Under the pieces are notes generated by a model. That model had not been told where the DNA came from. It did no database searches and was given only the letters and a program-made list of their open reading frames with translations. A stretch of DNA of 64,000 bases. Source: Myroides odoratus DSM 2801. GTDB taxonomy: Bacteria > Bacteroidota > Bacteroidia > Flavobacteriales > Flavobacteriaceae. Positions 11,455 through 28,542 of this stretch are shown here, in pieces. The stretch is from assembly GCF_000243275.1 (NCBI RefSeq), contig NZ_CM001437.1:152312-216311 (forward strand), given 5' to 3'. How positions within the stretch are numbered: the first letter of the stretch is position 1; every line of letters begins with the position of its first letter. Made by a program: the position numbers and the translations under genes.

Positions 11455-11492
11455 ATCACTTGTGATTCAATACATATCCTATCGAGTATCCT

Positions 11493-12515: not shown

Positions 12516-12804
12516 AAATAGAATAAAATGGGCTAAAATCGTTGATATTTCGATTTTCGTCCTTTGTTTTGTTCATTTAATCCTGTGGATTATTCGCGCT
12601 TCCTATATTACGGGTTCCCATACGGGACCATGGGCAACCTGGGTGTACAATCATTTGTATACTCCCATGTACTATGCGCTATACGCACTTCCTATTGCCT
12701 TGGGGTTTAGCGTCATAAACCGAAAACTATCGGTAGATTCTTTTGCTTTCCTATCCCTTAAGTCATTGGTTATTACGTATATTTTGATTTTTATTTTGCG
12801 ATGA
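12487..12804 (+). CDS. Small predicted membrane protein
   Basis: 105 residues with three hydrophobic segments (about 17-38, 58-76 and 86-104), separated by an aromatic loop around THTGPWATWVYNHLYTPMYY-like residues. No family recognised. The only in-frame start is ATG 12487, inside the end of the M28 peptidase gene, so the two probably form a translationally coupled pair. The first 13 residues are polar. Right after its stop comes the second minisatellite block. Confidence 0.6.
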   Translation: MEQTDLNSTKNRIKWAKIVDISIFVLCFVHLILWIIRASYITGSHTGPWATWVYNHLYTPMYYALYALPIALGFSVINRKLSVDSFAFLSLKSLVITYILIFILR

Positions 12805-12838
12805 GGCGGTGAGAATGTAGGGCGATGAGGCGATGAGC

Positions 12839-12982
12839 AAACCTCACAAAGAGCAAACCTCACAAAGAGCAAACCTCACAAAGAGCAAACCTCACAAAGA
12901 ACAAACCTCACAAAGAACAAACCTCACAAAGAACAAACCTCACAAAGAACAAACCTCACAAAGAGCAAACCTCACAAAGAGC
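12839..12982 (+). repeat. 16-bp minisatellite, nine units in perfect register
   Basis: Units AAACCTCACAAAGAGC or AAACCTCACAAAGAAC begin every 16 bp from 12839 to 12967. Variation is at one base (AGAGC versus AGAAC): four AGC units, then AAC units, then AGC again, as expected from slippage or unequal exchange. A GATGAGGCG-rich lead-in (12801-12838) precedes it. It lies between convergent genes and no terminator hairpin is evident there. Confidence 0.92.
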
Positions 12983-13020
12983 AAAAAAACAACTAGGCAC
13001 CGTTCACCGTAAACCATCCC

Positions 13021-13563
13021 CTATTTAGAAATATACTTGCTATCTATATAATCTGTTAGCCAAACACCATTAGCAGAACAGAAAAACGACACGCCATCTT
13101 CTTGCATTTTTCCTGCTAAAATCGTTAATACAACAACTCGTCCATGACGGGAACCCACGGCAATTGCGGTTTCTTTATCTTGACTCAAATGCACATGTTG
13201 GCGGTTCATTTTTTTGATTCCTTCCTTGTAAATGGAGGGCAAAAAACGATCGGCTGTTCCATGATACAAATATACTGGTGGCACTTGTGGAGTAAATTCT
13301 AAATCCACCACAATCGAATGCCCTTGATTGGCACGTATTTTCGTTTGGTCCTCATTCAAAGAATATCTTTTCTTTGTATTAGTTGCTACAATTTCATCTA
13401 ATTCTTTTCGAGTAAAGGACACGCGGTGCTTGCCACATTTTTGAATTAATTCATCAATATTTGCCCAGCCATTCGCATCTAGTTGAATTCCTATTTTACT
13501 CGGTTCATGACGCAAAATCAAAGACAAAAACTTCCCTATACTTTTCTTTCTAGCTTCTTCCAT
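13021..13563 (-). CDS. kptA: RNA 2'-phosphotransferase (Tpt1/KptA)
   Basis: 180 residues. The N-terminal winged-helix part has SLILRHEPSKIGIQLDANGWA and the C-terminal ADP-ribosyltransferase-like part has YHGTADRFL and VHLSQDKETAIAVGSRHGR, the NAD-binding and catalytic Arg/His set of the family. The enzyme moves an internal 2'-phosphate from RNA to NAD, giving ADP-ribose 1'',2''-cyclic phosphate. Its role in bacteria is not settled. The start is one base from the stop of the upstream SMI1/KNR4 gene, so they are cotranscribed. Confidence 0.93.
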   Translation of the reverse strand: MEEARKKSIGKFLSLILRHEPSKIGIQLDANGWANIDELIQKCGKHRVSFTRKELDEIVATNTKKRYSLNEDQTKIRANQGHSIVVDLEFTPQVPPVYLYHGTADRFLPSIYKEGIKKMNRQHVHLSQDKETAIAVGSRHGRVVVLTILAGKMQEDGVSFFCSANGVWLTDYIDSKYISK

Positions 13564-13564
13564 T

Positions 13565-14911
13565 TTAGGCTTGTAAATCTTCTACGGTTAATTTCATTTC
13601 TGTTAAACGATGCGTTAAATTAGTCAGGATGTAATTCTCTTCCGCACTGTCCTTATACTTGTGATACACTGCTTGATATACTGGCAGTAAACTTTCATCT
13701 ATTATGCCTCTTAGTGCTTGTAAACTATACAACACTACATTTTCATTTTCATCTTGTAATGCTTCTCTAAATAAAATGATATAGGCTTCTTTATTTTCCA
13801 ATTTACCCAGCGTATAAACAGCTTGACTGCGAATTTCAGCTTGTCTTGACGTTAATCCAGGTACAATTAAATACGCATAATTATCTGTTGCTTTTATTGC
13901 AATATAACTGTAAAAACGATAGGTTTCTTCCTCTTCTATTTTATCCTTATACGCTTCTAATACAGGAAGCCAATAGGCTTCATTTGTTCCATACCAGTGA
14001 ATTTGCTGCAAGACAAACAACAAGTTCGCTTCCACTTCTTCTTCTAAAAAAGGGATAGCACGATCAAAGGTTGTTTTCGCTAAAATCGAAATCAAACGCT
14101 GTCTTACTACAACTGTTACTTGAGGAATTGTTTCTATCACACCTTGAAGAATAGGTTCGCTTATTTCTTTTTTATTCATTAACCCATCCAAGTATTCCAA
14201 TTGCTCTTGTTCTGTGGTAGCCGTTCGAAAAGCCTCCCATAAGTCGATACTTGTTCCTCCTCTTCTGTAACCAAACCATCCAGCGTGTTCTGCGAGTAAA
14301 TCCCCAGCAATAATTTCATCCAACCAACGCTCATACCAAGCTAAAAAATCAGCTTCATAAGCAAATGCAGGTTTGTAATCATCATTGAGGTAAACAATTC
14401 TACCTTTATGCGGTCCATTTAAAATTAAACAAGTTGTAATTGCACATCCTTGCGTGCCAATAGGTAATAATCCACCAAATAAAGGCCCTACAATTGCATC
14501 GTAAGCCTCATCGGATAACTCCTCATCATACATAGCTTGCGTTAACGTTGTCCAAGTCTTATCAGTCATATCAGGATCTAATAGACAAGGATAACTCAAA
14601 TAGCGCTTAACATCCCCTGCATTGAGATCTTCTAGCCCATCCCCTAAAGGATAAATCCCATAATAAGGCCCAGCGGCACTTCCCATATAGGCGTTTTCTG
14701 TTGTGTTTCCATTTCCTATTTGGGTTACAAATGCCACATAAGCTTCGGGTAGTTTAATTCCGCACTTTTGTTCAAAAGTTGCTACTTCCTGAAGATCGAC
14801 ATTCGCACCTACGGTATATTCATGCGAATCTGCACCAAATACAACAAAATCTTCGTCGTATTGTTCAATATTCGCTAACTTTTCTTTGATTCTACTTAGT
14901 TGTATCTCCAC
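13565..14911 (-). CDS. SMI1/KNR4 domain protein with HEAT-like repeats
   Basis: 448 residues. Residues about 20-200 match the SMI1/KNR4 (SUKH) fold: FEQKCGIKLPEAYVAFVTQIGNG is its hallmark helix-strand unit. Residues 260-430 are helical repeats of the HEAT type, for example LTSRQAEIRSQAVYTLGKLE and DENENVVLYSLQALRGI. SUKH proteins often act as immunity proteins against contact-dependent toxins or in other protein contacts. No toxin gene is next to this one, so no immunity role is claimed. It lies 15 bp after the HutD-like gene and 1 bp before kptA. Confidence 0.82.
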   Translation of the reverse strand: MEIQLSRIKEKLANIEQYDEDFVVFGADSHEYTVGANVDLQEVATFEQKCGIKLPEAYVAFVTQIGNGNTTENAYMGSAAGPYYGIYPLGDGLEDLNAGDVKRYLSYPCLLDPDMTDKTWTTLTQAMYDEELSDEAYDAIVGPLFGGLLPIGTQGCAITTCLILNGPHKGRIVYLNDDYKPAFAYEADFLAWYERWLDEIIAGDLLAEHAGWFGYRRGGTSIDLWEAFRTATTEQEQLEYLDGLMNKKEISEPILQGVIETIPQVTVVVRQRLISILAKTTFDRAIPFLEEEVEANLLFVLQQIHWYGTNEAYWLPVLEAYKDKIEEEETYRFYSYIAIKATDNYAYLIVPGLTSRQAEIRSQAVYTLGKLENKEAYIILFREALQDENENVVLYSLQALRGIIDESLLPVYQAVYHKYKDSAEENYILTNLTHRLTEMKLTVEDLQA

Positions 14912-14926
14912 TTTTCTTTTTCTTCT

Positions 14927-15487
14927 TTATTTTATTTCTGGCATCGACCAATACCCTACAATAGTCGGTTGATTTACTTGTACTTCTACTGTTTGCTCTT
15001 CCTCATTGGTTATCAGAATACAATCCCACAGTTGCATGTCAAAAGATTGGGTATTAATCACAACTTCTCCCGCTGCTAACGCAAATAGCATAATAAACGG
15101 TTGATTCGTTTGAAAGGGTTCTTGACGCACCGCAACGACCTCATCGACAATCGTATCCTGCAGCATCAAATTAAAATCCGTTCCTTTTGAATAGGAAGTA
15201 ATGGTATCCGTTGACTTGAATGTAAATAGCTCGTGATTTTCATAGTGCTGATCTACGCCATTGATTGTTAAGTCTAACTTGCCATCTAACATCGCTAAAT
15301 AGCGGTGATATCCTTCAAATTTTGTAAATTCAGAAGGAATCGTTTCAATGGTGGCACTACTAATGCGAAATGCAAACTTTCGATCCGCATATAGAGCCAT
15401 TTTAGGGTAAATGCTATATTCTCTCGTTTGCCCACCTGACCATTGGTTCGCAGTCACCGTTTCTTTTTGTATAAATTCAATATGCAT
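14927..15487 (-). CDS. HutD/Ves family cupin protein
   Basis: 186 residues, beginning MHIEFIQKETVTANQWSGGQ, followed by TREYSIYP and the FRISSATIE pattern of the HutD/Ves family. The family is a bicupin of unknown catalytic activity, linked in other bacteria to histidine utilisation control. No hut gene is near. It is 55 bp downstream of the lanthipeptide exporter, so read-through from that operon is possible, but nothing in its sequence ties it to peptide modification. Confidence 0.82.
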   Translation of the reverse strand: MHIEFIQKETVTANQWSGGQTREYSIYPKMALYADRKFAFRISSATIETIPSEFTKFEGYHRYLAMLDGKLDLTINGVDQHYENHELFTFKSTDTITSYSKGTDFNLMLQDTIVDEVVAVRQEPFQTNQPFIMLFALAAGEVVINTQSFDMQLWDCILITNEEEQTVEVQVNQPTIVGYWSMPEIK

Positions 15488-15542
15488 CGTACAAATAAAC
15501 CTTGTAATTGAGAGGTTAAAACTACCACATTTTTTTGGCTTA

Positions 15543-17750
15543 TTAACTCCCTAATTCTAGTTGATTCTTGACTAGGTTATAGTATGTACCCTTTTTAGCG
15601 ACTAAAGCTTGATGGTTCCCTTCTTCTATACATTGACCTTGTTGAAGTACAATAATATGGTCTGCTTGTTTTACAGTAGACAAACGATGGGCTATGATTA
15701 ATACGGTTTTTCCTTTAAAAAACGTTTGTAAATTGTCGTGAATTATCTTCTCGTTTTCAGCATCTAAAGCAGAAGTTGCTTCGTCAAAGAACAGATAATG
15801 AGGATTTTTATACACAGCGCGAGCAATTAGGATACGCTGCTTTTGTCCGCCAGAAATGCCATTCCCTGCCGCACCAATTTTAGTTTGATATCCTAAAGGC
15901 AACTCCGATATAAATAACTCTAAATTGGCCATTTGAGCAGCATGCCTTAGTTTCGACTCATTCATTTCCTGATCACTTGTGGCAATATTACGTGCAATAG
16001 TATCTGAAAAAATAAAACCGTCTTGCATAACGACACCACAATTTTCACGAATACTCCTAGGAGAAAGTGCAGTCAAAGAATCTTCATCAAAATAGATTGT
16101 TCCATGTGTAGGCTCATAAAATTTTAATAAAAGCTTCATCAATGTAGTTTTACCACTTCCACTAGCACCAACAATAGCGGTTACTTTACCCTTTGGAAAC
16201 AATAAGTGAAGATTTTTCAACACATAGGGAGATTGAGGTCCTTCATATTGAAAGGAAAGCTTATTTAAATATATTCCTCTATTTTTCTCATTATCTTGTT
16301 TTCCTTCTGTCACGATTAGTGGTTTTAATGTTTCTTGTTCTTCTATAGGATGATGTTGTACTTCATTTAATCGGGCTAAACTAAGCTTCGCATCTTGAAA
16401 TGACCTAAAAAATGCAATAAGTTGATTAATCGGACTGTTCATTTGTCCGATGATATAAGAAACACTGAGTAAAGCTCCTAATGACATTGCTTGATGTACC
16501 ACTAAATAAGAAGTGAGAAAAGTTACCACAATATTTTTAAACTGATTGATAAATTCAAATCCAGAAAGTTGCACTTGATCTACTTTTAAAATCCGCTTAT
16601 TAATAACGAAGAGTTTTTGTTGTATTTCTTCCCACTCGATTCGTTTACTTTCCTCTAGTTGGTTCAATTTCATTTCTGAAACTCCATTGATAATTTCGTA
16701 AATTGCTTCTTGATTCTCACTGCGTTGTTGAAAACGAAAATAATCTAACATTTTTCTCTTTTTCATCCAATACAAAGACCAACCAATAGAAATAATCGTT
16801 AGACTGATATAAACAATTAAAATCTGAATATCATAGTACCACAATACCCCAAAGAAAACAGAAAATGTAAACATTGAAAAAACAGTTAGCAAACTATCCG
16901 AAGTTAGAAACTGTTCAATTCTCTCATGATCTTGAATACGCTGATTAAAATCTCCCATCAATTTAGTATCAAAAAACTTAATGGGTAATTGCAATAATTT
17001 CTTTAGAAAATCGGAGATAATTTGAATGTTGATTTGGGTTCCCATAATTAACAAGATCCAATTTCGACCTACACTAAACACAATATTACCCAAAAAAAAG
17101 GCTAGCTGAGCCATCAACACATATGTGATTACGGATAAGTTAGCTTTGTTGACTCCTTCATCAATAAGTTGTTGCGTTAAAAATGGAAAAAACAACATCG
17201 TCAAAGTACCTAAAAAAAGTAAAACAAATAATTGAAATACTTGTTTGCGGTAGGGTTTTAGATAGTGCCAAACATAGGCAAGTGTTTGTTTCTCTTGTTT
17301 TATAACTTGTTGTTCATGAAATCTTTCTGTTGGATGAACAAACAAAGCAATTCCCTTTTCACCTTCTGATAACCAAGCATGTTTAAATTTCTCTACTGAC
17401 AAAGAAATCATCCCATATCCTGGGTCTGCAATTTTATATTTTTTCTGGTTGGAAAATAAAGTAGTCGAAATTTTATAAAGAACAACAAAGTGATTCTGAT
17501 TCCAATGTAAAATACAGGGCAAAAGGGCTTGATCTAAATCTAGTGTAGTAATTTTGACTGCTTTTGATCTCATACCAATCTTTTTCGCTGCTTCTTTAAT
17601 TCCCAAGAGCGAAACACCTTCTCTTGTAATAAAACACTGTTCCCGTATATATTGAATACTTACCTTTTTCTTGTAATGATTCGCAATCATCGCTAAACAC
17701 GCGGGGCCACAATCCATTTGGTCGTGTTGGGGGGTGAAATATCTGAACAT
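15543..17750 (-). CDS. Peptidase-containing (C39) ABC exporter of the lanthipeptide
   Basis: 735 residues. The N-terminal C39 peptidase has Cys14 in QMDCGPACLA, His87 in NQNHFVVLY and Asp109 in ADPGYG, the triad that cuts double-glycine leaders. Next come six membrane segments (about 165-420) and an ATPase with GASGSGKTT, signature GISGGQKQR and Walker B YLFFDEATSALD. It should cut the precursor after Gly-Gly and export the core. It stands 3 bp after lanC, and the precursor in this operon ends its leader in GG. No HlyD-type adaptor gene accompanies it. Confidence 0.93.
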   Translation of the reverse strand: MFRYFTPQHDQMDCGPACLAMIANHYKKKVSIQYIREQCFITREGVSLLGIKEAAKKIGMRSKAVKITTLDLDQALLPCILHWNQNHFVVLYKISTTLFSNQKKYKIADPGYGMISLSVEKFKHAWLSEGEKGIALFVHPTERFHEQQVIKQEKQTLAYVWHYLKPYRKQVFQLFVLLFLGTLTMLFFPFLTQQLIDEGVNKANLSVITYVLMAQLAFFLGNIVFSVGRNWILLIMGTQINIQIISDFLKKLLQLPIKFFDTKLMGDFNQRIQDHERIEQFLTSDSLLTVFSMFTFSVFFGVLWYYDIQILIVYISLTIISIGWSLYWMKKRKMLDYFRFQQRSENQEAIYEIINGVSEMKLNQLEESKRIEWEEIQQKLFVINKRILKVDQVQLSGFEFINQFKNIVVTFLTSYLVVHQAMSLGALLSVSYIIGQMNSPINQLIAFFRSFQDAKLSLARLNEVQHHPIEEQETLKPLIVTEGKQDNEKNRGIYLNKLSFQYEGPQSPYVLKNLHLLFPKGKVTAIVGASGSGKTTLMKLLLKFYEPTHGTIYFDEDSLTALSPRSIRENCGVVMQDGFIFSDTIARNIATSDQEMNESKLRHAAQMANLELFISELPLGYQTKIGAAGNGISGGQKQRILIARAVYKNPHYLFFDEATSALDAENEKIIHDNLQTFFKGKTVLIIAHRLSTVKQADHIIVLQQGQCIEEGNHQALVAKKGTYYNLVKNQLELGS

Positions 17751-17753
17751 GGA

Positions 17754-18974
17754 TTATCCTATTAGTAAAAGTTCATTTAAATCAGGAAGAGTAGCTAAAC
17801 CCTCTTTCATTAATGTAATCCCAATACCTCCAATACCCCAATAAAAAGAAAAAGTAGCTGATTTATCGGCTTCATTAAATTTTTCATATTCAAATTGAAA
17901 TCCGGCTAGATTTTTTTTTTGTGAATCTCTAAATTTAAAAATGCACTCGAACCAGTATAAATAGGATTCTAAATAAATTTCATTATTTGTTCTATTATAC
18001 AAATCTTTATAAAGATAATAAAGACCTGAACAACCATACAAAATACTGGAATCTTGAGTATAATTTTTATTTAATCTCCTTTTAGAAGTAGAAATAAGTA
18101 ACTCATTTATCCTTTCATCAAAATTTTCAATTTCTAAAAGTCGTAAAGCATTTGAAATAGCATATAGTACACCTAAATCTCCATAACACATGGAAAGTTG
18201 TGTTATACTTGCTTTTTCATCTTGTATAAAAGTGTGAGGGAAGTATCCATCCAAATAGTTTCTCTCTCTTCTAATTAAAAAAGTGATAGCCTTAAACAAA
18301 ACATCTTCTAATTCTTTTTTATCTCCAACATAAATATTAAACTCTATGACTTTACTCAAGAAATTAATTATCATCGCCGCCCCATGTGACAATCCTAAAT
18401 AAACGCTATTATTAAATGTCGGGGAGTTCCAATAAACCTCTTCCTCATTCAGGATAATTTTATCTTTTATAACAGCTTTTACAATTAAATTTAATATACT
18501 TTTTGAAAACTCATCTTTATTATATTTATAATGATTTAAAAAATAGTACCCTGTAGAAAAGGTACCACAAAAATAATCATGATCTTTTTTATTAATAGTC
18601 TGTTTTGTTATATCGTAAAGTACCTCATTTAACTCCATACAATACGATGAAAAATCATACCTAAATTCAAAATTATTCTGAATAAACAAAAGACCTTTTC
18701 CAAAACTAGACAACATAAACCCAACAGAGTCTCCTTTATACTTTAAACTTGGATTATTAAAAATCTGGTTCGAAATATAATCAATTGATTTTTCAATTAA
18801 GAATTCACCTTTACTAAAAAAACTATCATTCTTGAAATAATCAAATGCATAATAATAAAAAATAGCTCCCCCCATCCTCCCATATTCTATAGAAGAATCT
18901 GAAAATACATGTAGGTTATGATTTATTTCTTGTTCAATAGCCAAAATAATCTCTTCTAGCTCTAATTTTTTCAT
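17754..18974 (-). CDS. LanC-like lanthionine cyclase with an altered zinc site
   Basis: 406 residues from ATG 18974. The alpha-barrel repeats of LanC are recognisable: GLSHGAAMIINFL (194-206), MCYGDLGVLYAI (262-273) with C263, and WGIGGIGITLM at the end. In NisC zinc is held by one Cys in the CYG motif and by Cys-His of the CHG motif. Here the CHG position reads ILYGCSGLYYLY (311-322), so the Cys-His pair appears to be Leu-Tyr, with C315 two residues further. The frame extends 32 codons upstream, into the lanB end. I prefer ATG 18974, 5 bp after lanB. Alignment is by eye. Confidence 0.82.
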   Translation of the reverse strand: MKKLELEEIILAIEQEINHNLHVFSDSSIEYGRMGGAIFYYYAFDYFKNDSFFSKGEFLIEKSIDYISNQIFNNPSLKYKGDSVGFMLSSFGKGLLFIQNNFEFRYDFSSYCMELNEVLYDITKQTINKKDHDYFCGTFSTGYYFLNHYKYNKDEFSKSILNLIVKAVIKDKIILNEEEVYWNSPTFNNSVYLGLSHGAAMIINFLSKVIEFNIYVGDKKELEDVLFKAITFLIRRERNYLDGYFPHTFIQDEKASITQLSMCYGDLGVLYAISNALRLLEIENFDERINELLISTSKRRLNKNYTQDSSILYGCSGLYYLYKDLYNRTNNEIYLESYLYWFECIFKFRDSQKKNLAGFQFEYEKFNEADKSATFSFYWGIGGIGITLMKEGLATLPDLNELLLIG

Positions 18975-18978
18975 GGTT

Positions 18979-21900
18979 TTATTGTTTAATTTGTCTAGAG
19001 TAGATTGAATTATATGTCTTAAACAATAAGTAGTAAAAAACCAATTCTTGTTTCCTTGCCTGAAGAACAAAAATTCGATTCAGATTCAGATGAATATAAT
19101 CCTTAATTAAAGTTATATATTTCTGATTTTCAATCACACTATTTCTGATAACTGAAACTAATTCACCTGTACTTTTTGATCTTTTTTTTAAGGGTTTTAC
19201 AAACTCAATAATTAAATCAAAATTGTTTAATCGAATAGTAGAATCTAGAAAATCTTTATTCAACCTAAATTTTTTATCTAGCGAAACTTTAAACTGTTTT
19301 GTATTAAATGCTGTATGAGATTGTTTAGTAATCTCTAACATTAGACTTCTATACATGTCTTTAAAAATTTCAACCCTATTTAAAAGTGAGATATTGAAAT
19401 CATTTAACATTAAATGAATTGAAACGACAGCAATCTTCCATCTTAGTTCATTATTAACTATTTCTTTCTTAGATAACAGTTTTAAAATTGCAATACTATC
19501 ATACATAAAGTATGTTTCTGAAAGGCTAATTAACTGAATTCCATATCGTTCTATTTCACGCTTATAGGTATCTATTTGAAAATAAGAAACTATCCCATTT
19601 TTTATTAAAACATCTAGCAAATCTTTTAAAGTAGCTAAATTATGTTTTGTTATTTTTCTTTTTATTCGAAAACGAATATGAAAATCAGGATCATTATATC
19701 GAATAAAAAACCAACAAATAGAATCTGGTAATTGTTTTACATATTTCTTTATCACTTCTTTAATAACTGTATCCCCATAATATGGACTTGTATATATTTT
19801 AAAAAAGCTCCATTCATCTCCTGGTAAAAATTGTCTTTGCACTGTGCCATCAGAAACATTTACTTTTTCCAATACTTGTGGCAATTGTTCTTCACATTTG
19901 AAAGGAAAAATAAATTCAGCAACAAATTGATCTCCTGCTTCATTAAAAAACTTTGTAGAATCCAAATACTCGTACAACCATAGTGATTGTTTTGCAATTT
20001 TTTTTATCAAAATATCTAAACAAATGTCTAATGACAAATCTAGAATTAGTATGTTGTCACGCTGTCTAATAGTACAGAATGTAGGTATATTACGTTCTCG
20101 TAATATTTGTTGTAATGTTTGTTGATTAATATTCTGATTCTTATGAATTTTCCACTGAGCTACTGAAAGTATTATCTCTTTATACTCAACCCGTGGTAAG
20201 AAATCATTATTTTTCAAATATCCCCAATTCCATTTAAATCCATGATCTAAATTATAATATTGATAATCTCCTAGAAACTTAATCACTGATAATTGACTAT
20301 TGTCAAGATTATAAGCGTTTGAATATCTTATTTTTATTTCCTTATTTAATTTTTTAGATACTAGTTTAATTCTCCCCTCTTCATACCGAATATAAATATC
20401 ATTCATCGAAATTGTATTAGACTCCTCATCTTCACTACAAGCGGCCAAATAAACTATTGAATAATTATATAAATTAGGCCGCATTAAAACATTCGCCAAT
20501 CTGTTTTTTTTATGATATAACAATTCAGCATGGATACAATTTTCAGAATCAACTTCAGTTATCTCTTTTAGACTATCAAATAGTTCTTTATCATAATAGG
20601 CATATCTAGATAAAATGTCACTAACATTACTTGTAGGTATATTGGAAAGAGGCATAAACTTAAAATTTCCATTATCAATATCTTCTTGTGTATCACAAAT
20701 AAAAGAACCAAATAGATGACAGTTTGCTCCAAACGGAATAAAAGTTGATTCTTCACTTTGTAATGTACTAATCCTTTCTTTAGTTAAAACTATCGGCTGA
20801 ATAATTGTGGTTGAAAAACATTGAATATACTCTTTAATTATCATATCTATCAATGGAGAAACTGTACCTTCGTATATAGCAGCATCTTGAAATGGAAAGT
20901 AAACGTCTTGCAATAGAGGTAGTTCTTCTAAGTTACTTCTAACAAAAACACTATAGCCTACTCCATAATCAGGATCGAGAGCAAGCATAAGAGGAACTTC
21001 TTTTGTTTCAAATTTATTATAAAATCGCTCTATAAAACTCACTAAATCCGGATTAACATTTTTTCCCCTTAGTGGCATTATTTCTTTCATTCGTTGTGCT
21101 AATAACTCTACAACATTTTTATTCACTTGATTCAAATTCAAATTTATTCTAGTATCTACTTGAAAAACTTGATCATTTATATCGATAATACCACTGATTT
21201 CACTTCGTATTTTCTCTATGTCATCTATACATTCAGAAGATTTAAAATAGTCAGAATGAATCGTCTTCTCTAAATTTATTATTGGCATTAAAAGCTTTGT
21301 GTCAATTTTATATTGAATCAAGTATTGTTCTACTTCTAATAGAGGATTAGCTAAACTTGTCATATATGGAGGCATTCTATCCACTAAAAAATTTGCATCA
21401 ATTAATAATCGAATATACTCTTCGATTTCTAATATTGACTTAGAATGACAATTGGAATTTTTTATTAGAAAAAGTTTTATATCAGCTTTTGTTATACCAT
21501 GATAAGCTATAGATAATACTTGCTCTAAAATGACATTTTTTTTTATCTCTAAAATCTCATAATTAAAATTATGATCCCAACTAATGTAACGCCAATAATC
21601 CCCTATACTATATAATGTATTATTTGGGTAAAAAGGAAGATTATTAGTTTTATTTTTTCTCACAATCTCTTCTTTCATTTTATTAATAAACAAATTATCT
21701 ACCCTTACAAAGGGCTGTAAATTGTTTGTAGCAATTTTAATCTTAGTTTTATCCATGGTAGTTTTACCCAGACCAACACCCGCAAATAGTCCATATGGAG
21801 TACTCCTTGAACACATTCGGATATAGTATTTATACATGCTCTGAAGAACACTATCAGAATAATTGAAGTCACTTACTTCTTTTTCCATCCAATTTGTTGA

Positions 21901-22074
21901 TTTATAATAAAAATCTCTAGATGACAAATAAATTGCATTCATGAATAAAGGATTCATCAAAAACTTTTTTATTTCTTGTACATCTTTATTTCTCATTGCA
22001 TTATTCAACAATTTAATATCATTAAAAGGTAGCGTAGGAACACGTATTACATAAAAATTTGTAGGATAAATCAT
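18979..22074 (-). CDS. Full-length class I lanthipeptide dehydratase (LanB)
   Basis: 1031 residues, the size of a complete LanB. The glutamylation domain has RMCSRSTPYGLFAG (86-99; R86 and R90 match the spacing of the catalytic arginines of NisB). The elimination (SpaB_C/thiopeptide-type) domain has FFIRYNDPDFHIRFRI (from 789), YKREIERYG and a C-terminal HLNLNR with H995. LanB uses glutamyl-tRNA to glutamylate Ser/Thr and then eliminates glutamate, giving Dha/Dhb. It follows the precursor gene after a 91-bp gap holding a hairpin. Base composition is more AT-rich than the flanking housekeeping genes. Confidence 0.93.
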   Translation of the reverse strand: MIYPTNFYVIRVPTLPFNDIKLLNNAMRNKDVQEIKKFLMNPLFMNAIYLSSRDFYYKSTNWMEKEVSDFNYSDSVLQSMYKYYIRMCSRSTPYGLFAGVGLGKTTMDKTKIKIATNNLQPFVRVDNLFINKMKEEIVRKNKTNNLPFYPNNTLYSIGDYWRYISWDHNFNYEILEIKKNVILEQVLSIAYHGITKADIKLFLIKNSNCHSKSILEIEEYIRLLIDANFLVDRMPPYMTSLANPLLEVEQYLIQYKIDTKLLMPIINLEKTIHSDYFKSSECIDDIEKIRSEISGIIDINDQVFQVDTRINLNLNQVNKNVVELLAQRMKEIMPLRGKNVNPDLVSFIERFYNKFETKEVPLMLALDPDYGVGYSVFVRSNLEELPLLQDVYFPFQDAAIYEGTVSPLIDMIIKEYIQCFSTTIIQPIVLTKERISTLQSEESTFIPFGANCHLFGSFICDTQEDIDNGNFKFMPLSNIPTSNVSDILSRYAYYDKELFDSLKEITEVDSENCIHAELLYHKKNRLANVLMRPNLYNYSIVYLAACSEDEESNTISMNDIYIRYEEGRIKLVSKKLNKEIKIRYSNAYNLDNSQLSVIKFLGDYQYYNLDHGFKWNWGYLKNNDFLPRVEYKEIILSVAQWKIHKNQNINQQTLQQILRERNIPTFCTIRQRDNILILDLSLDICLDILIKKIAKQSLWLYEYLDSTKFFNEAGDQFVAEFIFPFKCEEQLPQVLEKVNVSDGTVQRQFLPGDEWSFFKIYTSPYYGDTVIKEVIKKYVKQLPDSICWFFIRYNDPDFHIRFRIKRKITKHNLATLKDLLDVLIKNGIVSYFQIDTYKREIERYGIQLISLSETYFMYDSIAILKLLSKKEIVNNELRWKIAVVSIHLMLNDFNISLLNRVEIFKDMYRSLMLEITKQSHTAFNTKQFKVSLDKKFRLNKDFLDSTIRLNNFDLIIEFVKPLKKRSKSTGELVSVIRNSVIENQKYITLIKDYIHLNLNRIFVLQARKQELVFYYLLFKTYNSIYSRQIKQ

Positions 22075-22114
22075 TCTTGATTATTTTAGAATCAATAAAT
22101 ATTTTTGTTAAACA

Positions 22115-22152
22115 AAGTCTCTCCCCCATAAATTAAAAAGGGGAGTAGACTT
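22115..22152 (-). terminator. Intercistronic hairpin between precursor and lanB
   Basis: On the minus strand AAGTC-TA-CTCCCC pairs with GGGGAG-A-GACTT around an AT-rich loop, 14 bp past the precursor stop. The following sequence TTGTTTAAC is only weakly T-rich, so partial termination or 3'-end protection of the short transcript is more likely than full termination. This is a usual way for peptide operons to make more precursor than enzyme. Confidence 0.6.
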
Positions 22153-22165
22153 GTTAGCTTTAAAA

Positions 22166-22342
22166 TTAATCAACACTAGTAGTTGAAGTAGAACTACATG
22201 ATTTAGTAGTTGAGGTAGACTTACATTTAACTTTATCAGCATTCATCAATTCAACATGTCCTCCTTTTACTGAGGCCAATTGTTCATCATTTAGTTTTGC
22301 AATTCTCTTTTTGTCAAAACTCAGTTTTCCAAAATCTTTCAT
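22166..22342 (-). CDS. Lanthipeptide precursor (58 residues, double-glycine leader)
   Basis: ATG 22342 to TAA 22166. The leader starts MKDFG and holds KLSFDKKRIAKLNDEQL followed by ASVKGG, the shape of Bacteroidota class I lanthipeptide leaders with cleavage after Gly28. The 30-residue core is HVELMNADKVK, then CKSTSTTKS (40-48), CSSTSTTSV (49-57) and D58. It therefore has two Cys and 13 Ser/Thr, in two tandem nine-residue modules that are also alike in DNA. No Ser or Thr precedes Cys40 in the core. The gene lies between the TonB-type receptor gene and lanB, all on one strand. It is certain as a frame, and very likely as the substrate of the neighbouring enzymes. Confidence 0.92.
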   Translation of the reverse strand: MKDFGKLSFDKKRIAKLNDEQLASVKGGHVELMNADKVKCKSTSTTKSCSSTSTTSVD

Positions 22343-22404
22343 AATTAAAATTTAAAATTATTCTCTACTCTATTAAGGATTTTCGAGTACTTCCTTTATA
22401 TTTT

Positions 22405-24765
22405 CTATTGTGCTCTATTTTGCTCATCAAACTGAATAAATTTATTTTTTACTTTATCATTCCCAAAAGAATAGTTAATGCTGACTACAAGTTTTCGACT
22501 ATCAAAAAAATTAGTAAATTCGGACCTATATCCAGAATTATAGGAAAAACCATTACTATTTGACGTTTTAAAAAGATCTTCTACTAACAAACTAGTTGTT
22601 AACTTTCTCTTATTCAGCAAGAGTTTTAATCCTATATCAAAGCTCATCTGTTTCTCAATTTTAATATTAGAATAGGTATAGGGTAATGAATGCCAAAAAT
22701 TGACCATTAAAGAATACGTTTTATCTTTATTCAATGTAAATGTATTTGAGCTTGAGTATGAGAGTGCATAAACGCTTAGTCCTTCTGATTCCTTTATAAT
22801 TGATGTTGTTTTGTCATAGTACCCTATTACATTAATTGATGTTTCCCATCTGTTAAAAAGATTATCATTATAACTGAGTTGTAATCCTACCATATTTTCA
22901 TTAAAACTATTTTTTATTATATTAACATACTGTCCATCAATAACATTAGCGATATTAGAGGTTCCATTTTTATCATATTGATAGAATAATGTTGCATTTA
23001 ATACACTATATAAAGTATAGCTAAGTTCTATGTTATTACTAAAAACAGGTAATAAACTTGGGGTACCTGAAAAGTAGGTGTATGGATTAGTATACCAGCG
23101 AAATGGGTTTAATTCTTGAAAGCTTGGTCTTTCAATTCTTCTTGAAAAGTTTAAAGAAACAACATGAGATGTATTAGGAGAATAACTCAAGTAAACGGTT
23201 GGAAAAAATTCCCCATACTTATCTTTTGACATTGTATTATCTTCTTCCCCAATTGCATTATTGTTTAAAACTGTATACTCGAATCGTACACCCGACTTTA
23301 CTGACCATTTATCACTAATATCCTTTTGATAACTAAAGTAAATAGCATAGTTTTTTTCTTCATATTTAAACTGATTGCTTTTCTCATTATCCAAAATGAA
23401 GCTCGATTTATCAACGTTAAAATACGATACATTAGATGCATTCTTAAATAAAGAACCCTTAGTCCCAAATTCAATCATTCCATAAAAAGCTGGTAAAACT
23501 ATATCCAATTGACCTGACAAAATACTATACTTCATTAAGCTATTATTTCTCATAACTACTTGATCTAAACTAGTTTTGTTCATTGTACTAAAATCATTGA
23601 TTTTGTTAGGTATATTGCTCAGATAGTTAATTCCCAAGCTCATTTTATTTCCTATACTATCAAATTTATAATCATAATAAAGATTAACTATATGCATCCT
23701 TGTTTTCCATATTTGTTTTTGATTTGTATAAAGAATTGAGTCATTCAGATTTAAATGTTGATATATACTTGTTCCAAATGCATTCATTTTTGTGTTATTA
23801 GAGGTAAGATCATATAACAAACCTATATCTTGTTTATCATCAATTTGATAATTCATACTATAATTCCCTCCAAATATATTCTTCTGGTCTTTTCTCTTTT
23901 CATTAGTATAAATACTATAATTCTCTCCTAAGAGATTTCGAGTTCCATAAGGTTTATAGTTATTATTACTTTGACGTAGTTTCAGAGATATGGACAATTT
24001 TTTTGATTTATAATTTATAGTTCCATGTACCCCAAAACCACCATATTCATTCTTTTGATAAAAACTAGTAAGATTACCATTCCATCCTTTACTTTGATTT
24101 TTTTTCAATACAATATTTATAATGCCACTATTACCTTGAGCTTCGTACTTAGAAGATGGAGTAGTTATCACTTCAATATTTTTCACATCATTTGAAGTAA
24201 GAGATTGCAAATAATTAAATAAATCATTTTGCGTAATATTCAAAACCTTATCATTAATCATGACAACGACATTCCCTTTTCCTACAATAGAAACATTTTC
24301 ATTTTGAACATTCACCAAAGGAGTGCTTTTTAAAAGATCAATAACATTCACCCCTTGTGACATAACCGAATTTTCTACGTTAAAGACCAAGCGATCCACC
24401 TTGCGCTCGATTAATTTTTTCTTGGCTGTAATGGTAATGCTATCCAATAAAACACCTTCATCCACTTGAATCTTTCCTAAATTCATATCTTGTGCAACTA
24501 CCAAATCCTGGCTATATTTTTGCTTACCGAATTCAATTAACAGTAAGGTGTAGTTTCCATGTAACACCTGTAAAGTAAAATTCCCTAAACTATCCGTATA
24601 CGCATGAGGCGTATTTGAATTTGTACTACTGGTGAGATAAACATCCATGAATTCAACAGGTTGTTGTTTTGAATTCACCACTTGCCCTTGTAGCTGAAAA
24701 GATTGACCATAGCTCAAACAAGGAATTAGTAAAAAAACAAAATAACAAGGCGATAAATTATACAT
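22405..24765 (-). CDS. TonB-type outer-membrane beta-barrel receptor
   Basis: 786 residues. Signal peptide ending near LSYGQ, then a carboxypeptidase-regulatory-like beta domain (about 25-105, GQVVNSKQQPVEFMDVYL), a plug (about 125-225, ending EVITTPSSKYEAQGNSGII) and a barrel of the OMP_b-brl_3 type. Receptors of this type bind or move ligands across the outer membrane. Its place as the first gene of the lanthipeptide operon, 62 bp before the precursor with no promoter box between them, suggests a role in release, uptake or immunity. Which of these cannot be told from sequence. Confidence 0.88.
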   Translation of the reverse strand: MYNLSPCYFVFLLIPCLSYGQSFQLQGQVVNSKQQPVEFMDVYLTSSTNSNTPHAYTDSLGNFTLQVLHGNYTLLLIEFGKQKYSQDLVVAQDMNLGKIQVDEGVLLDSITITAKKKLIERKVDRLVFNVENSVMSQGVNVIDLLKSTPLVNVQNENVSIVGKGNVVVMINDKVLNITQNDLFNYLQSLTSNDVKNIEVITTPSSKYEAQGNSGIINIVLKKNQSKGWNGNLTSFYQKNEYGGFGVHGTINYKSKKLSISLKLRQSNNNYKPYGTRNLLGENYSIYTNEKRKDQKNIFGGNYSMNYQIDDKQDIGLLYDLTSNNTKMNAFGTSIYQHLNLNDSILYTNQKQIWKTRMHIVNLYYDYKFDSIGNKMSLGINYLSNIPNKINDFSTMNKTSLDQVVMRNNSLMKYSILSGQLDIVLPAFYGMIEFGTKGSLFKNASNVSYFNVDKSSFILDNEKSNQFKYEEKNYAIYFSYQKDISDKWSVKSGVRFEYTVLNNNAIGEEDNTMSKDKYGEFFPTVYLSYSPNTSHVVSLNFSRRIERPSFQELNPFRWYTNPYTYFSGTPSLLPVFSNNIELSYTLYSVLNATLFYQYDKNGTSNIANVIDGQYVNIIKNSFNENMVGLQLSYNDNLFNRWETSINVIGYYDKTTSIIKESEGLSVYALSYSSSNTFTLNKDKTYSLMVNFWHSLPYTYSNIKIEKQMSFDIGLKLLLNKRKLTTSLLVEDLFKTSNSNGFSYNSGYRSEFTNFFDSRKLVVSINYSFGNDKVKNKFIQFDEQNRAQ

Positions 24766-25073
24766 AATCCAACTATTTTTAATTTAAATTTTAAAAAACA
24801 AAATACTATTAATCAGTGCATTAATTAATAAAATCTAAATTAAAAAAGGGAGTCTAAATAGTAACTACTCCTAGGGGTAGTTTTTAGCTCAACACCAAAA
24901 AACTACCCCTAGGAGTAGTCTACGGATTAGGTATCTACATGCCTTTATTCCTATCACGATTCAAATATTTCATTCCTATTACGTACAACTAAGAAACATC
25001 GTTGCTCTACATCTATTCTTTTCTATTATTTTTAAAGTAAAGCCCCTTTAATCAATTATAGAAAAACAAAAAA
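24766..25073. other. Divergent regulatory region of the lanthipeptide locus
   Basis: 308 bp between the start codons of the receptor gene (minus) and the LuxR-type gene (plus). It holds the pair of palindromes at 24864-24919 and is otherwise AT-rich. A near -7 element (TATTTTG) is seen on the minus strand close to the receptor gene, but no exact TAnnTTTG box for the plus-strand gene. I see no small gene here. Confidence 0.6.
24864..24919. promoter_or_regulatory. Twin 18-bp palindromic operators in inverted order
   Basis: ACTACTCCTAGGGGTAGT (24864-24881) and ACTACCCCTAGGAGTAGT (24902-24919). Each is an almost perfect dyad around CCTAGG, and the second is the exact reverse complement of the first. 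With the adjoining T and A runs they form a 22-bp inverted repeat with a 12-bp centre; dyad centres are 38 bp apart. An 18-bp dyad fits a dimeric LuxR-type regulator, and the divergent gene encodes one, so autoregulation and control of the receptor-lan operon is inferred. Confidence 0.7.
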
Positions 25074-25793
25074 ATGGAAGTAAAACAGAAAGAAATGGAA
25101 GCAAGCGCTCCCAACTACCTAGAAGCTGTACAAGCGTTAGCTAGAATGACGTATAAAAGCATTTACATCATTGATCATCAAAAGAAAGTATTTGATTATG
25201 TTTCGGATAACCCTCTTTTTCTCTGTGGATATTCCGTTTATGAAGTACAAAAAATGGGATTTGACTTTTATACCCAATGCATTCCTGATCAGGATCGAAA
25301 TATGTTAATTAAAATAGCGGAAGCGGGATTTCATTTTTTGTATGCTATTCCCATGGAAGAACGAACACAATATACCTTAGCGTGTGATTTTCATCTGAAA
25401 CACAGGCAAATTCCCCTCCTTTTGATTCACCATGAGATAACCCCACTTTGTTTAACAACCACAGGAAAATTGTGGAAATCTATTTGTATTGTCTCACTAT
25501 CGACCGCCTATCAAATGGGAAATAGCAAGATATTTAAGTTAAACAGTACAGCCACTTGGAGGTATGATTTAAGCCACAACACCTGGGAAACCACAATCAA
25601 GCCGAAACTTTCTCCTAGAGAGTTGGAAGTTTTACAGTATGCTATCAGGGGCTATAAGATACACGAAATCGCTTCTTGCCTTTATCTAACCTCCGATACA
25701 ATTAAATTCCACCGCAAAAAGATTTTAGAAAAACTACAGGTGCACAGCATAGCTGAGGCTATTCGCTTCGCTATTGTCAACAAATTACTATAA
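25074..25793 (+). CDS. LuxR-type transcription regulator with PAS-like sensor
   Basis: 239 residues. The C-terminus (about 178-238) is a LuxR/NarL helix-turn-helix: LSPRELEVLQYAIRGYK, then IHEIASCLYLTSDTIKFHRKKI, with the usual Thr-Ile-Lys-x-His recognition helix. The N-terminus (about 20-125) reads like a PAS fold (YIIDHQKKVFDYVSDNPLFL, CGYSVYEVQKMGFDFY). No phosphoacceptor receiver is present. The ligand is unknown. It is divergent from the lanthipeptide operon across a palindrome pair, so it is the likely local regulator. The start at ATG 25074 gives a normal PAS-LuxR length. Confidence 0.85.
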   Translation: MEVKQKEMEASAPNYLEAVQALARMTYKSIYIIDHQKKVFDYVSDNPLFLCGYSVYEVQKMGFDFYTQCIPDQDRNMLIKIAEAGFHFLYAIPMEERTQYTLACDFHLKHRQIPLLLIHHEITPLCLTTTGKLWKSICIVSLSTAYQMGNSKIFKLNSTATWRYDLSHNTWETTIKPKLSPRELEVLQYAIRGYKIHEIASCLYLTSDTIKFHRKKILEKLQVHSIAEAIRFAIVNKLL

Positions 25794-25834
25794 CAATATA
25801 GGTTCTTGTAGCTCTTTCCTTGTCTCCCTATAAC

Positions 25835-25865
25835 TACAAAACACGAACTGTGTTCATGTTTTGTA
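25835..25865. promoter_or_regulatory. 31-bp palindrome with GAAC/GTTC core
   Basis: TACAAAAC, two bases, GAAC, TGT, GTTC, two bases, GTTTTGTA. Only one pair in each arm fails to match. It lies between the LuxR gene and the end of the broken S24 regulator. No T run follows on either strand, so an operator or a weak hairpin fits better than a terminator. GAAC/GTTC also recurs upstream of the broken gene. Confidence 0.45.
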
Positions 25866-25880
25866 TCATAAGTTTACCCT

Positions 25881-26700
25881 TTAAAAAAAGCGTTTAATCA
25901 CGTGAAAAATTTGAACAACATCATCCATAGCACATTCCATAATTGCATAACTGCTATTGCGACTAGACAAGATCAATTTTCTACTCTGCGGATTGTAATC
26001 TGTAATATCCTTATGAAGAATATGATCTTTGGTTACTAGTACAAAACCGTATTTTGTAGCTTTAAAACCACCTTCCCATAGATTCTTAGGAATTTCTTTC
26101 GCTAGAATTTCTGCTCCGTTTGGTGTATCCTCAATATTACCTCCGTTCATCGTATCCCCTACTACTTCAAATGCTTGATAATAACCAAGCTCAAAATAAT
26201 CCACACTAAACTCTGCTCGCACAAAGTGATCTTGAAGCAAATGAACATCTTGATACTTTTCAATATAGGCCGTATGCGCCGTAAATGGAATTTTAAAAAC
26301 CTCCATATCTATTTTCAGCCCCGAATAAAAAGTAAAAGTATTCCCGCGCTTGTTATAAAAAACTTCAGGCACCAGACTTTTGGTTAAATACGTCGCTTCA
26401 CTTTCAAATAGCACATGTATCCCCTTTTTCTGTCCTTTCAACGCTTCATCGTGCATCGTTTTGGGTTGTGAAATAAATAAACTCCCTTCTCCATTGGCTA
26501 GCCACTTGCGATTTAATATAGGAGCAAATGTGACCAATCGATTAATAAAACTTGTACTGATATTCACTTTGCCATTGACTTATTTGGGAAAAAGAAGATT
26601 TCTTATATCCTAATTTTTGAGCAAGGTCGGTATGATTTTTAGCCAACCCTTCAAAAATAATCCACTTAACTGCCTCATTGAGGCGTTCAATTTTATCCAT
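25881..26700 (-). pseudogene. XRE/S24-type (LexA-like) regulator split by a frameshift
   Basis: ATG 26700 opens a helix-turn-helix start, MDKIERLNEAVKW then IIFEGLAKNHTDLAQKLGYK and KSSFSQIS, which stops after 50 residues. The other half (25881-26567) goes on in the next frame with NGKVNISTSFINRL and a C-terminal S24 peptidase fold. Joining them at about 26574-26583, by removing one base, gives a continuous protein of about 273 residues with the usual SQI-x-NGK turn. The S24 region has GDTM where a catalytic Ser would give GDSM, so self-cleavage was doubtful even before the break. A sequencing error or programmed shift cannot be excluded. Confidence 0.75.
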
Positions 26701-26906
26701 ATCTAAATAATTTACTAAAAATACACGAACGTTATATGTAATTTTTCATGGTAGAAAAAAACTTTGTTCGTACATTTGATTTTACACTTAAATAGCAAAA
26801 ATACATAAAAATCAATATAAAATAATCAATTTTATTAATAATAATTCAAATATAAATCACATTTATTATAAAATTCAAATATAAATCCTTCTAAAAATAG
26901 ACTCGT

Positions 26907-28430
26907 ATGATGACTAATTGGCAAAACATATCCCAACAAGATTTTTCGCAAGAACTCCTTCAGCAGTTAAGCGTTTTGATTCAAGAGAAACAACTACTTA
27001 CCCTTTGGCTGGGTCCTATTTGGGGATCTTCAAACCTTCGTGGATTATGGATGTATGTACAAGATAAAGTTCAAACCTATGCGCTATTTACCACCACTTA
27101 TAGGAAAAACATCCTAGATGAAGAGCAACTGCTTATCATCATATTGGATACTGCGGATTTAACCTACCACAAAACGATAGGCAATACCCTATTCAAAACC
27201 AGCTTACTTCCCAGTCGTATCATCTGTCAAACAACAGCAATCCCTCTCCCGCACCCCGTGTCTAGCTCCTTGGTCAATTTTATTGCCTTGTATCAAGATA
27301 AACACGCTTTATTGTCTTCCTATTGTAGCGATTTTGTTGCACCAAATTATTGTGGAAGTAGCCACGCATTGCTCAAGTCATTAACCTATGATATTGATGT
27401 CTTGGAAACTGTTTTACTAGGTGTGCCTCAAACAGCGGCAACTTTAACCCATCGACTATTGCTTTTGGAACAACTTATACCTAAAATGAAAACACTATTT
27501 GTCAAACGCGAAGCAGATGCATACTACATTTTAGATGATTTGGCACAAGAGATAGAAGATGTTCCGTATACGATGTGGAATACAGCTCTTCAAAAAATTC
27601 AAAAGAAACTCCATCGTATTGTTCTTTTTGTGTTAGAGCAACTGGATGCATCACCAACACGAATACCGCGCAAACGCAACGGAAGAAAGCAAAAAAAGAA
27701 ACCTTTTACGTACCAAGAAAAACTAGCTCCCCTGTTAAGGACCAATCAAGTCGAGGAGATTTATCAATTTCATGAAATTCTTTATTTACACCCAAGAAAA
27801 CAGCAAAAACACGTTTATTTGTTGGTGATTACCAAAGAAAATCCGACCAAAGAAATAAAAAAAATCCTACAAGAAATTGAAGCAAAAAAAGAGGAGATTC
27901 GCTTTACTCTACTGGCTCATACTCGTTTTTATATTCAAGAATATGTGTATGAATTTTCCGATTTTTTCAAAACGATTATTCAATCCAAAAACAGGATTTA
28001 TGCTAGTGACTACTATCCTCATATTCATTGGTATAAGAGCCATATGAAGAATTACAGTGATTTCATCCAACGTTATCAGGGGCATTTAGCACAAGTCAAT
28101 CACACGATTCAACACCATTTTAAAAATCCGCAAGGGGACACGTTTATCACGACACATCACCTGCATACTTGTTTAGCTGTTAAATTGCACATTTACATTC
28201 TGCATCGCTTGCATTATTTACCCCAAACCAAAAACATCCATACTTTGGTTCATTTAGCCTTGTATGCCAAAGACACAGAAGCTCCTAAGTTAAAATCTTT
28301 ATATGATATCTTACATCCGCTTGTATTTGCTTATACAATCCAACATAAACAAGAGAAAAAATACAATTTGGTGCTAGATCAAGTGACTGTTCAACAGTTG
28401 CGACAATTCTTTACAACCCTCGAAATATAA
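26907..28430 (+). CDS. Uncharacterised 507-residue protein, possible NTase/HEPN-like C-terminal half
   Basis: No signal peptide or membrane segment. The first 170 residues are mixed, residues 170-250 helical, and there is a basic stretch PRKRNGRKQKKKPF near 255. From about 290 the pattern YLLVITKENPTKEIKKIL, FTLLAHTRFYIQEYV and DFFKTIIQSKNRIYASDY resembles the nucleotidyltransferase-like/HEPN proteins often seen in Bacteroidota, but catalytic motifs cannot be assigned by eye. The end (430-507) is helical and His-rich. It stands alone, between a regulator remnant and the efflux operon, converging on the latter. Function unknown. Confidence 0.55.
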   Translation: MMTNWQNISQQDFSQELLQQLSVLIQEKQLLTLWLGPIWGSSNLRGLWMYVQDKVQTYALFTTTYRKNILDEEQLLIIILDTADLTYHKTIGNTLFKTSLLPSRIICQTTAIPLPHPVSSSLVNFIALYQDKHALLSSYCSDFVAPNYCGSSHALLKSLTYDIDVLETVLLGVPQTAATLTHRLLLLEQLIPKMKTLFVKREADAYYILDDLAQEIEDVPYTMWNTALQKIQKKLHRIVLFVLEQLDASPTRIPRKRNGRKQKKKPFTYQEKLAPLLRTNQVEEIYQFHEILYLHPRKQQKHVYLLVITKENPTKEIKKILQEIEAKKEEIRFTLLAHTRFYIQEYVYEFSDFFKTIIQSKNRIYASDYYPHIHWYKSHMKNYSDFIQRYQGHLAQVNHTIQHHFKNPQGDTFITTHHLHTCLAVKLHIYILHRLHYLPQTKNIHTLVHLALYAKDTEAPKLKSLYDILHPLVFAYTIQHKQEKKYNLVLDQVTVQQLRQFFTTLEI

Positions 28431-28467
28431 TAGCGTTATTCTCATACTATTCAATCTACAGCATTAT

Positions 28468-28499
28468 AAAAAAAGGAGCTCTTTTAAAGCTCCTTTTTT
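28468..28499. terminator. Bidirectional terminator
   Basis: AAAAAAAGGAGCT / AGCTCCTTTTTTT stem with a short loop, between the convergent 507-residue gene and the efflux outer-membrane factor gene. A and T runs make it work on both strands. Confidence 0.9.
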
Positions 28500-28542
28500 A
28501 TCATGCTATTGACTCCACGATAACACGCACTTCAATTCTCCT

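Follow-up and report, generated by a model that had tools for sequence, protein, structure and literature searches.

A class I lanthipeptide locus of Myroides odoratus DSM 2801 with a mosaic TonB-type transporter gene and a putatively exchangeable cassette

The subject of this report is a class I lanthipeptide operon of Myroides odoratus DSM 2801, located at 15543-25793 of a 64-kb stretch of contig NZ_CM001437.1 (the window; all coordinates are positions in it). The host genome consists of 1 contig of 4.30 Mb. The locus is read as a modular platform for ribosomally synthesized and post-translationally modified peptides (RiPPs), in which a resident housing carries an exchangeable cassette, and a TonB-type outer-membrane barrel is the cognate transporter of the peptide; the probability of this reading is put at about 0.6. 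The housing would comprise the LuxR-type regulator, a paired operator, the first ~140 codons of the barrel gene and the C39-peptidase ABC exporter. The cassette would comprise the plug and barrel of the transporter, the precursor gene and the modifying enzymes. The mosaic receptor gene is what is new; the set of partner genes itself is recurrent and not unique. The gene content, mosaic structure, co-inheritance and operator pattern were obtained by computation. L and G numbers denote compared loci and genomes, WIN is the window locus, and G828 is a congener whose locus L173 is syntenic with it. The operon is real, and its features are as follows.

15543..17750, minus strand: C39-peptidase ABC exporter (PF03412, 5.6e-35), clade without adjacent HlyD, resident housing, 82-83% identity to the G828 exporter
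17754..18974, minus strand: LanC-type cyclase (PF05147), CHG changed to LYG with two of three zinc ligands gone (alignment of 36 LanC rows)
18979..22074, minus strand: LanB dehydratase, full length, glutamylation and elimination domains (PF04738, 7.8e-94, and PF14028, 3.9e-48; nearly whole profiles)
22166..22342, minus strand: precursor, 58 amino acids (NCBIfam NF038153 'class I lanthipeptide' leader, 1.7e-10, above its cut-off)
22259-22342, minus strand: precursor leader, residues 1-28 ending in GG (composition)
22169-22258, minus strand: precursor core, 30 residues (composition)
22405..24765, minus strand: TonB-type outer-membrane transporter, 786 amino acids (PF14905, 1.7e-77; PF00593, 9.7e-15)
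24346..24765, minus strand: barrel gene codons 1-140, with signal peptide, CarbopepD-like domain and TonB-box-like stretch, read as the resident module (69% identity to the G828 barrel, 29% to L078, GC 0.355)
22405..24345, minus strand: barrel gene codons 141-786, plug and barrel, read as the exchanged module, with an uncertain junction in codons 134 to 222 (46% identity to L078, GC 0.276)
17751..24345, minus strand: cassette read as exchanged, with plug/barrel, precursor, LanB and LanC (blastn against L173; GC 0.273)
24865..24880, no strand: candidate operator site 1, CTAC-N8-GTAG (pattern search)
24903..24918, no strand: candidate operator site 2, CTAC-N8-GTAG (pattern search)
25074..25793, plus strand: LuxR-type regulator, resident housing (GerE, 3.8e-16; 70% identity to the LuxR protein of the same G828 locus)

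In G828 the chromosomal locus is shared on both sides, with KptA, SUKH, HutD and C39-ABC genes on one flank and the LuxR gene, a helix-turn-helix (HTH) gene and a 507-amino-acid family gene on the other. Between the flanks, G828 has three barrel genes and a single GG precursor, with a 495-amino-acid radical-SAM/SPASM protein in place of LanB and LanC. Its three barrel frames are open, against one precursor found, and an operator site lies upstream of each; the initial 420 nt are the same in the first and third barrel genes, which diverge thereafter. Blastn of WIN against L173 gave homology from the LuxR gene into the barrel gene, up to codon 134 against the first G828 barrel (71% block) and up to codon 222 (24101) against the third (69% block). 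The match returns 10 bases after the exporter's first base, and only a 57-bp piece matches in between. From codon 151 the window barrel is 14-42% identical to the third G828 barrel per 50-residue block. The crossover region is the conserved KKKLIERKVDRLVFNVENS stretch of the barrel family.

Trees of 19 barrel rows gave different placements for the two parts. The N-terminal part groups the window with G828 (96 in the Shimodaira-Hasegawa-like approximate likelihood ratio test, SH-aLRT), and a group of the window with L078 (Chryseobacterium daecheongense) and L077 (Empedobacter brevis) is rejected by the approximately unbiased (AU) test (p 0.0001). The plug/barrel part places the window with L078 and L077 at a support of 100, and groups of the window with both G828 barrels (p 3.3e-6) or with the third (p 6e-7) are rejected; these are quick trees, with only 144 columns in the N-terminal part and with groups chosen after the identities had been seen. 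From the AU tests and the limits of homology inside the barrel gene it follows that the specificity part of the receptor moves together with the peptide and the modifying enzymes. The base composition changes within the gene as well, GC falling from codons 1-140 to the rest. The low-GC block (0.273) covers approximately 17751-24345, against a window mean of 0.356, and near-mean values are found for the exporter (0.337), the LuxR gene (0.374) and the flanks (0.38 and 0.374); the gap between the barrel and LuxR genes is also low (0.273). Mobility, which the sequence-only reading had drawn from low GC, is thus retained as exchange of an internal cassette in a resident frame, but not for the whole range. 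A clean empty site was seen in none of three congeners (G959, G925 and G792), fetched out of 21 other genomes with a SUKH match.

The two parts of the barrel gene also differ in co-inheritance. Distances were compared over 14 lan loci, or 11 after removal of near-copies, by Spearman correlation and partial Mantel tests with 5000 permutations. Plug/barrel distances correlate with those of LanB at 0.84 (0.81 deduplicated) and with those of the exporter at 0.45 (0.31). Distances of codons 1-140 correlate with the exporter at 0.73 (0.67 deduplicated) and with LanB at 0.38 (0.28). In the partial tests of the leading pairs the observed value was reached by 0 of 5000 permutations each, and by 4 and 2 of 5000 after deduplication. 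The crossed pair of N-terminal part and LanB is weaker, not nil (partial 0.18, 504 of 5000). Samples of 140 columns drawn at random from the barrel track LanB (mean 0.82), and thus the difference does not stem from the shortness of the N-terminal part. When codons are taken 80 at a time in sliding windows, the switch lies between the start positions 41 and 121. A specific relation between peptide and barrel accounts best for the exchange of plug/barrel together with precursor and enzymes, an exchange that suggests a receptor specific to the peptide.

The same combination occurs in other genomes. LanB relatives, the own genome counted, were found in 35 of 397 family-sample and 34 of 395 phylum-sample genomes, in two pieces in most family-sample relatives. 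Neighbourhoods were compared for a subset of 40 of the LanB matches and for 80 named loci from a scan with the barrel alignment, the best 80 of at least 500 loci encoding a relative; an initial scan of named genomes, with the LanB protein as query, had returned no loci. The order barrel, GG precursor(s), LanB, LanC, C39-ABC, which the sequence-only reading proposed to look for in other Bacteroidota, is present in 9 other fetched loci. These are L037 (from another family within the same order), Chryseobacterium daecheongense L078, Pedobacter cryoconitis L080, C. elymi L081, C. endalhagicum L082, C. shigense L093, C. carnipullorum L099, Pedobacter sp. ISL-64 L119 and Chitinophaga vietnamensis L120. 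Of the 9, all except L078 contain an additional gene whose family is unknown. A ~345-amino-acid protein that scored above cut-off in neither Pfam nor NCBIfam is shared by L037 (6137-7177), L080 (10076-11104), L081 (17766-18803), L119 (17189-18277), L082, L093, L099 and L120 and is lacking in the window. L053, L177, L196 and L058 of the own genome represent a variant that has two LanC genes together with a luciferase-like gene. In L112, L139, L162 and L173 the barrel is followed by a GG precursor and a radical-SAM/SPASM protein, and in the first three of these a LanB gene lies on the other side of the barrel. The barrel thus accompanies C39-exported RiPPs repeatedly, and does so for two chemistries; the distinctive partner noted from the sequence is real, but it recurs in other genera and also stands before radical-SAM RiPP genes.

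On the minus strand the operon reads TonB-type barrel, precursor, LanB, LanC and C39-ABC, with the LuxR gene divergent. This order, the 58-residue precursor and the full LanB had been claimed beforehand and are supported by the Pfam and NCBIfam matches and their coordinates, as is a GG leader suited to the C39 exporter (NF038153, PF03412). The divergent regulator was confirmed as LuxR-type by its GerE match; no PAS domain, also claimed, was recognised in it by Pfam. The precursor has a leader and a core with 2 Cys and 13 Ser/Thr in 30 residues, as expected for class I. Within the core no Ser/Thr precedes Cys40, which would therefore be either free or linked to a residue further on. LanB is a single protein of 1031 amino acids with the N-terminal glutamylation and C-terminal elimination domains, and its relatives of solved structure include NisB (E 1.7e-31). 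In pinensin-type loci, which are also Bacteroidota class I, LanB is split into two proteins, unlike in the window. The cyclase belongs to the LanC family (PF05147 9.7e-26 over residues 58-422 of a 438-amino-acid frame); LanC as a phmmer query against solved structures found no LanC among the matches. Its start at ATG 18974 is, judged from position, likelier than a TTG that overlaps LanB.

The Cys...Cys-His triad of NisC-type cyclases, whose residues we take to be the zinc ligands, is incomplete in the window LanC: the first Cys is kept and CH is replaced by LY. The CHG motif is retained in 20 of 36 aligned LanC rows. In all 10 fetched cyclases of the window operon type (WIN, L037, L078, L080, L081, L082, L093, L099, L119 and L120) the first Cys is conserved and CHG reads xYG. 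The statement that all steps from modification to leader removal are present is not supported as made: two of three zinc ligands of the cyclase are gone. The Pedobacter lusitanus NL19 cyclase of Bothwell et al. 2021 is reported to lack the canonical zinc ligands, like the window LanC, and is said still to form rings. The locus probably makes a ring-containing (lanthionine) peptide. Precursor cores of L081, L082, L093, L099 and L120 contain repeated TGCGSGGSTC-like units, with at least two precursors per operon. A second lanthipeptide locus of the own genome, L058 (2319-13780; C1:652-664 kb, with the LanB locus at 658 kb), has a barrel, precursor, luciferase-like monooxygenase, LanB and C39-ABC. 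L058 encodes two LanC proteins, one with CHG and one degenerate, and has no LuxR gene and no operator site.

We infer the following pathway. LanB would dehydrate Ser/Thr of the core, and the zinc-site-degenerate LanC, or spontaneous addition, would close the thioether rings. The C39-ABC protein would cut after GG and export the peptide. The barrel would serve as the peptide's own transporter in the outer membrane, most probably as a receptor that acts in re-uptake, sensing or self-protection, by analogy with MbnT and methanobactin. An AlphaFold2 model of the barrel protein (30 rows; mean predicted local distance difference test score 81.3, predicted template modelling score 0.70) comprises an N-terminal domain, a low-confidence linker near the TonB-box-like stretch, a plug and a barrel. 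The plug and large beta barrel of TonB-dependent transporters are present in this model. The top Foldseek matches are TonB-dependent transporters, namely PhuR (E 3.3e-21), Cir together with domains of microcin V or colicin Ia, and PqqU. The stretch LDSITIT, which resembles a TonB box, lies before the plug and near the low-confidence linker; it is similar in many relatives.

Of the two putative roles, that of receptor is favoured over export, because orphan barrels occur in Empedobacter brevis L077 and, behind one operator site each, in G828. The L077 barrel (9983-12328) is the best-scoring relative of the window barrel in the named scan (45%), and no RiPP genes were seen within 10 kb of it. 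The main competitor, which we consider unlikely, makes the barrel an export gate: C39-ABC would free the cut peptide into the periplasm and the TonB-driven barrel would pass it outward, as Oar does with PopC. In its favour, TonB-dependent secretion has a precedent in Oar of Myxococcus xanthus, a TonB-dependent transporter required for outward transport (PMC6434023, available portion), whose substrate is a protease and not a RiPP as in the window. The absence of HlyD from the exporter clade also favours export. In a quick tree of 34 C39-ABC rows, some on long branches and many entered via the barrel search, the window exporter falls in a clade of 18 (SH-aLRT 95) with adjacent HlyD in 0/18 and a barrel within 9 kb in 17/18. 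The other 16 exporters have HlyD in 14 and a barrel in 4, two of which owe it to a nearby second operon. HlyD status changes 3 times on this tree, against 11.1 in shuffles. Among the 18 rows that entered via LanB or are the window itself, a barrel is present in 4/5 clade rows versus 1/13 others (hand count; Fisher p 0.008).

No HlyD gene was found by hidden Markov model at 12001-32000 of the window, where the exporter thus lacks the adjacent adaptor of C39-ABC type I secretion, and no operon protein matched the HlyD or TolC families in Pfam. The RiPP-type adaptor of L057, used as single query, had a homologue in 12 of 14 genomes searched and was missed only in the own genome (E<=0.001) and G828; strongly diverged adaptors would escape such a query. 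Adaptor homologues are nevertheless found in other barrel genomes (G486, G476, G865, G1029 and G776), and L119 and L066 carry both HlyD and barrel. The own genome has 45 OEP-domain matches, usually two per protein, and therefore possesses TolC-like channels, one of them encoded at 28543-30012, ~2.7 kb past the LuxR gene and adjoining a large RND-like gene. Barrels without nearby precursor or lan genes (two in G828, one in L077) would make little sense as exporters. Of the earlier suggestion that a barrel stands in for adaptor and TolC-like channel, only the absence of both families from the operon proteins is supported, and the orphan barrels speak against a pure export role. A 161-amino-acid gene after the L112 exporter was considered as a shrunken adaptor and set aside as weak (17 bits). 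A form of the exchange platform in which the peptide-matched barrel supplants HlyD and TolC and gives a C39 exporter its gate in the outer membrane, with chemistry and gate swapped together, is likewise tentative, about as doubtful as the export gate itself.

It is improbable that the barrel is an ordinary nutrient TonB-dependent transporter and a mere neighbour, its correlation with LanB stemming from shared ancestry of the locus. The family is large in these genomes (8 own-genome matches at E<=1e-100 among 10 scored of 40 candidates) and the majority of those fetched lie away from RiPP genes, as this would predict. However, in several genera lan loci and radical-SAM loci have the barrel ahead of a GG precursor, and the opposite co-inheritance of the two gene halves is not given by shared ancestry of the whole locus. 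Recent horizontal transfer of the whole operon as an island would fit the low GC of 17751-24345 and is very improbable, as G828 has the exporter, LuxR gene, operator and barrel codons 1-140 in common with the window, at the same chromosomal position, and the genes among them have near-normal GC.

Several observations weigh against the modular platform with a cognate barrel. After allowing for LanB, a weak tie between plug/barrel and exporter remains (partial 0.30, 259 of 5000). Of 115 barrel rows, 21 are near C39-ABC, 87 are not and 7 are unscorable at stretch ends, fractions that are biased because the rows were picked by similarity to RiPP-linked barrels. Receptor homologues without lan association, which the sequence-only reading had held to tell against it, are therefore the majority (87 of 108 scorable not near C39-ABC), yet divergence of barrel and LanB is strongly linked where both occur. 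RiPP linkage needs ~11 changes on the barrel tree, and a single RiPP-specific barrel clade is rejected. L054 has an exporter of the clade and no barrel gene in the fetched stretch, and the L058 barrel is paired with one LanC that retains CHG. Either lineage may have received its cassette; the radical-SAM gene of G828 is AT-rich too (GC 0.276). G828 is the only genome found with the same chromosomal locus and another cassette; G959, G925 and G792 (three fetched of 21 others with a SUKH match) keep KptA-SUKH-HutD with other neighbours and have no such locus. Bacteroidales LanC-like proteins without the zinc triad were judged likely inactive in lanthipeptide synthesis, LanB being absent there (PMC10352776, available portion).

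The two CTAC-N8-GTAG sites lie 38 bp apart (start to start) between the LuxR and barrel genes and are a candidate LuxR operator. With up to 2 mismatches these are the only two such palindromes in the window, with 4 strand-wise matches versus 0.2 expected. Exact matches in the whole genome and in G828 occur only at this locus, in G828 as one site before each of the three barrel genes; allowing one mismatch added a few sites, about the same number as for a control pattern. Among 164 loci (3.29 Mb) there were 56 single sites and 11 pairs less than 200 bp apart. All 11 pairs are spaced by 38 and all lie in LuxR loci (11/25, L053 and L177 being near-copies). In 16 barrel loci scanned, the pair was present in 6/7 with LuxR (L037 has single sites only), and no site was found in the 9 without LuxR.

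The LuxR family and operator pair also occur outside lanthipeptide loci (L178, L181, L182, L184 and probably L187). Of three other LuxR loci viewed, with peptide and synthetase names assigned by eye, genes for NHLP-like peptides are present in L178, together with C39-ABC and HlyD, and in L186, and L182 encodes a protein of 3706 amino acids resembling a nonribosomal peptide synthetase. LuxR stands beside C39-ABC-like genes in L178, L181 and L184, and a ~230-amino-acid GNAT-like protein and a ThiF-like protein are frequent neighbours (all by eye). In L196 (3594-3989; G1029) the LuxR gene of a lan locus is apparently split in two frames, with the operator pair present.

Among known systems, PedA15.2 of Pedobacter lusitanus NL19 was named a new class I lanthipeptide (PMC12328550, available portion). 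The lanthipeptides of that strain are likewise Bacteroidota class I, likened here by description and not by sequence. Walker et al. 2020 described Bacteroidota class I precursors with an LxLxKx5L leader, GG site and C39 exporter (PMC7268733). The window precursor has the same type of leader motif (LxFxKx5L, by eye), GG site and exporter; the word 'TonB' is absent from the main text of that paper, as far as available, versus the barrel in the window operon. In graspetide loci, PF14905/TonB-linked outer-membrane proteins are among the neighbours and TonB-related receptors are predicted to act in export (PMC8939145); PF14905 is near RiPP genes as here, the chemistry is ATP-grasp, and neither a mosaic barrel nor the operator is mentioned in the available portion. 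Methanobactin operons have their own TonB-dependent transporter, as here: MbnT, the proposed importer of the product, is less conserved than the biosynthetic proteins (PMC3621798, available portion). Their enzymes are others than LanB and LanC, and their exporter is MATE and not C39-ABC. The literature searched, outside which most subscription papers lie, yielded no account of a lanthipeptide locus with a mosaic receptor.

Three neighbouring features of the window were recorded. A KptA-like RNA 2'-phosphotransferase gene adjoins that of a SUKH/HEAT protein (13021-14911, minus strand), a pair kept in G828, G959, G925 and G792. The HTH-type gene at 25881-26700 (minus strand) looks frameshifted, because it forms two overlapping frames versus a single 272-amino-acid frame in G828 (L173 1809-2627). 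The TolC-like (OEP) gene near the lanthipeptide locus forms, with the large RND-like gene, a block at 28543-33136 (minus strand).

Little is known of how GG-leader RiPPs of Gram-negative bacteria pass the outer membrane or are recognised there. The mosaic gene names a putative peptide-receptor pair and its junction, which makes the pair directly testable. A barrel gene directly before a GG precursor, a C39-ABC exporter without HlyD and the 38-bp operator pair may serve as markers for further lanthipeptide and radical-SAM RiPP loci in the Bacteroidota.

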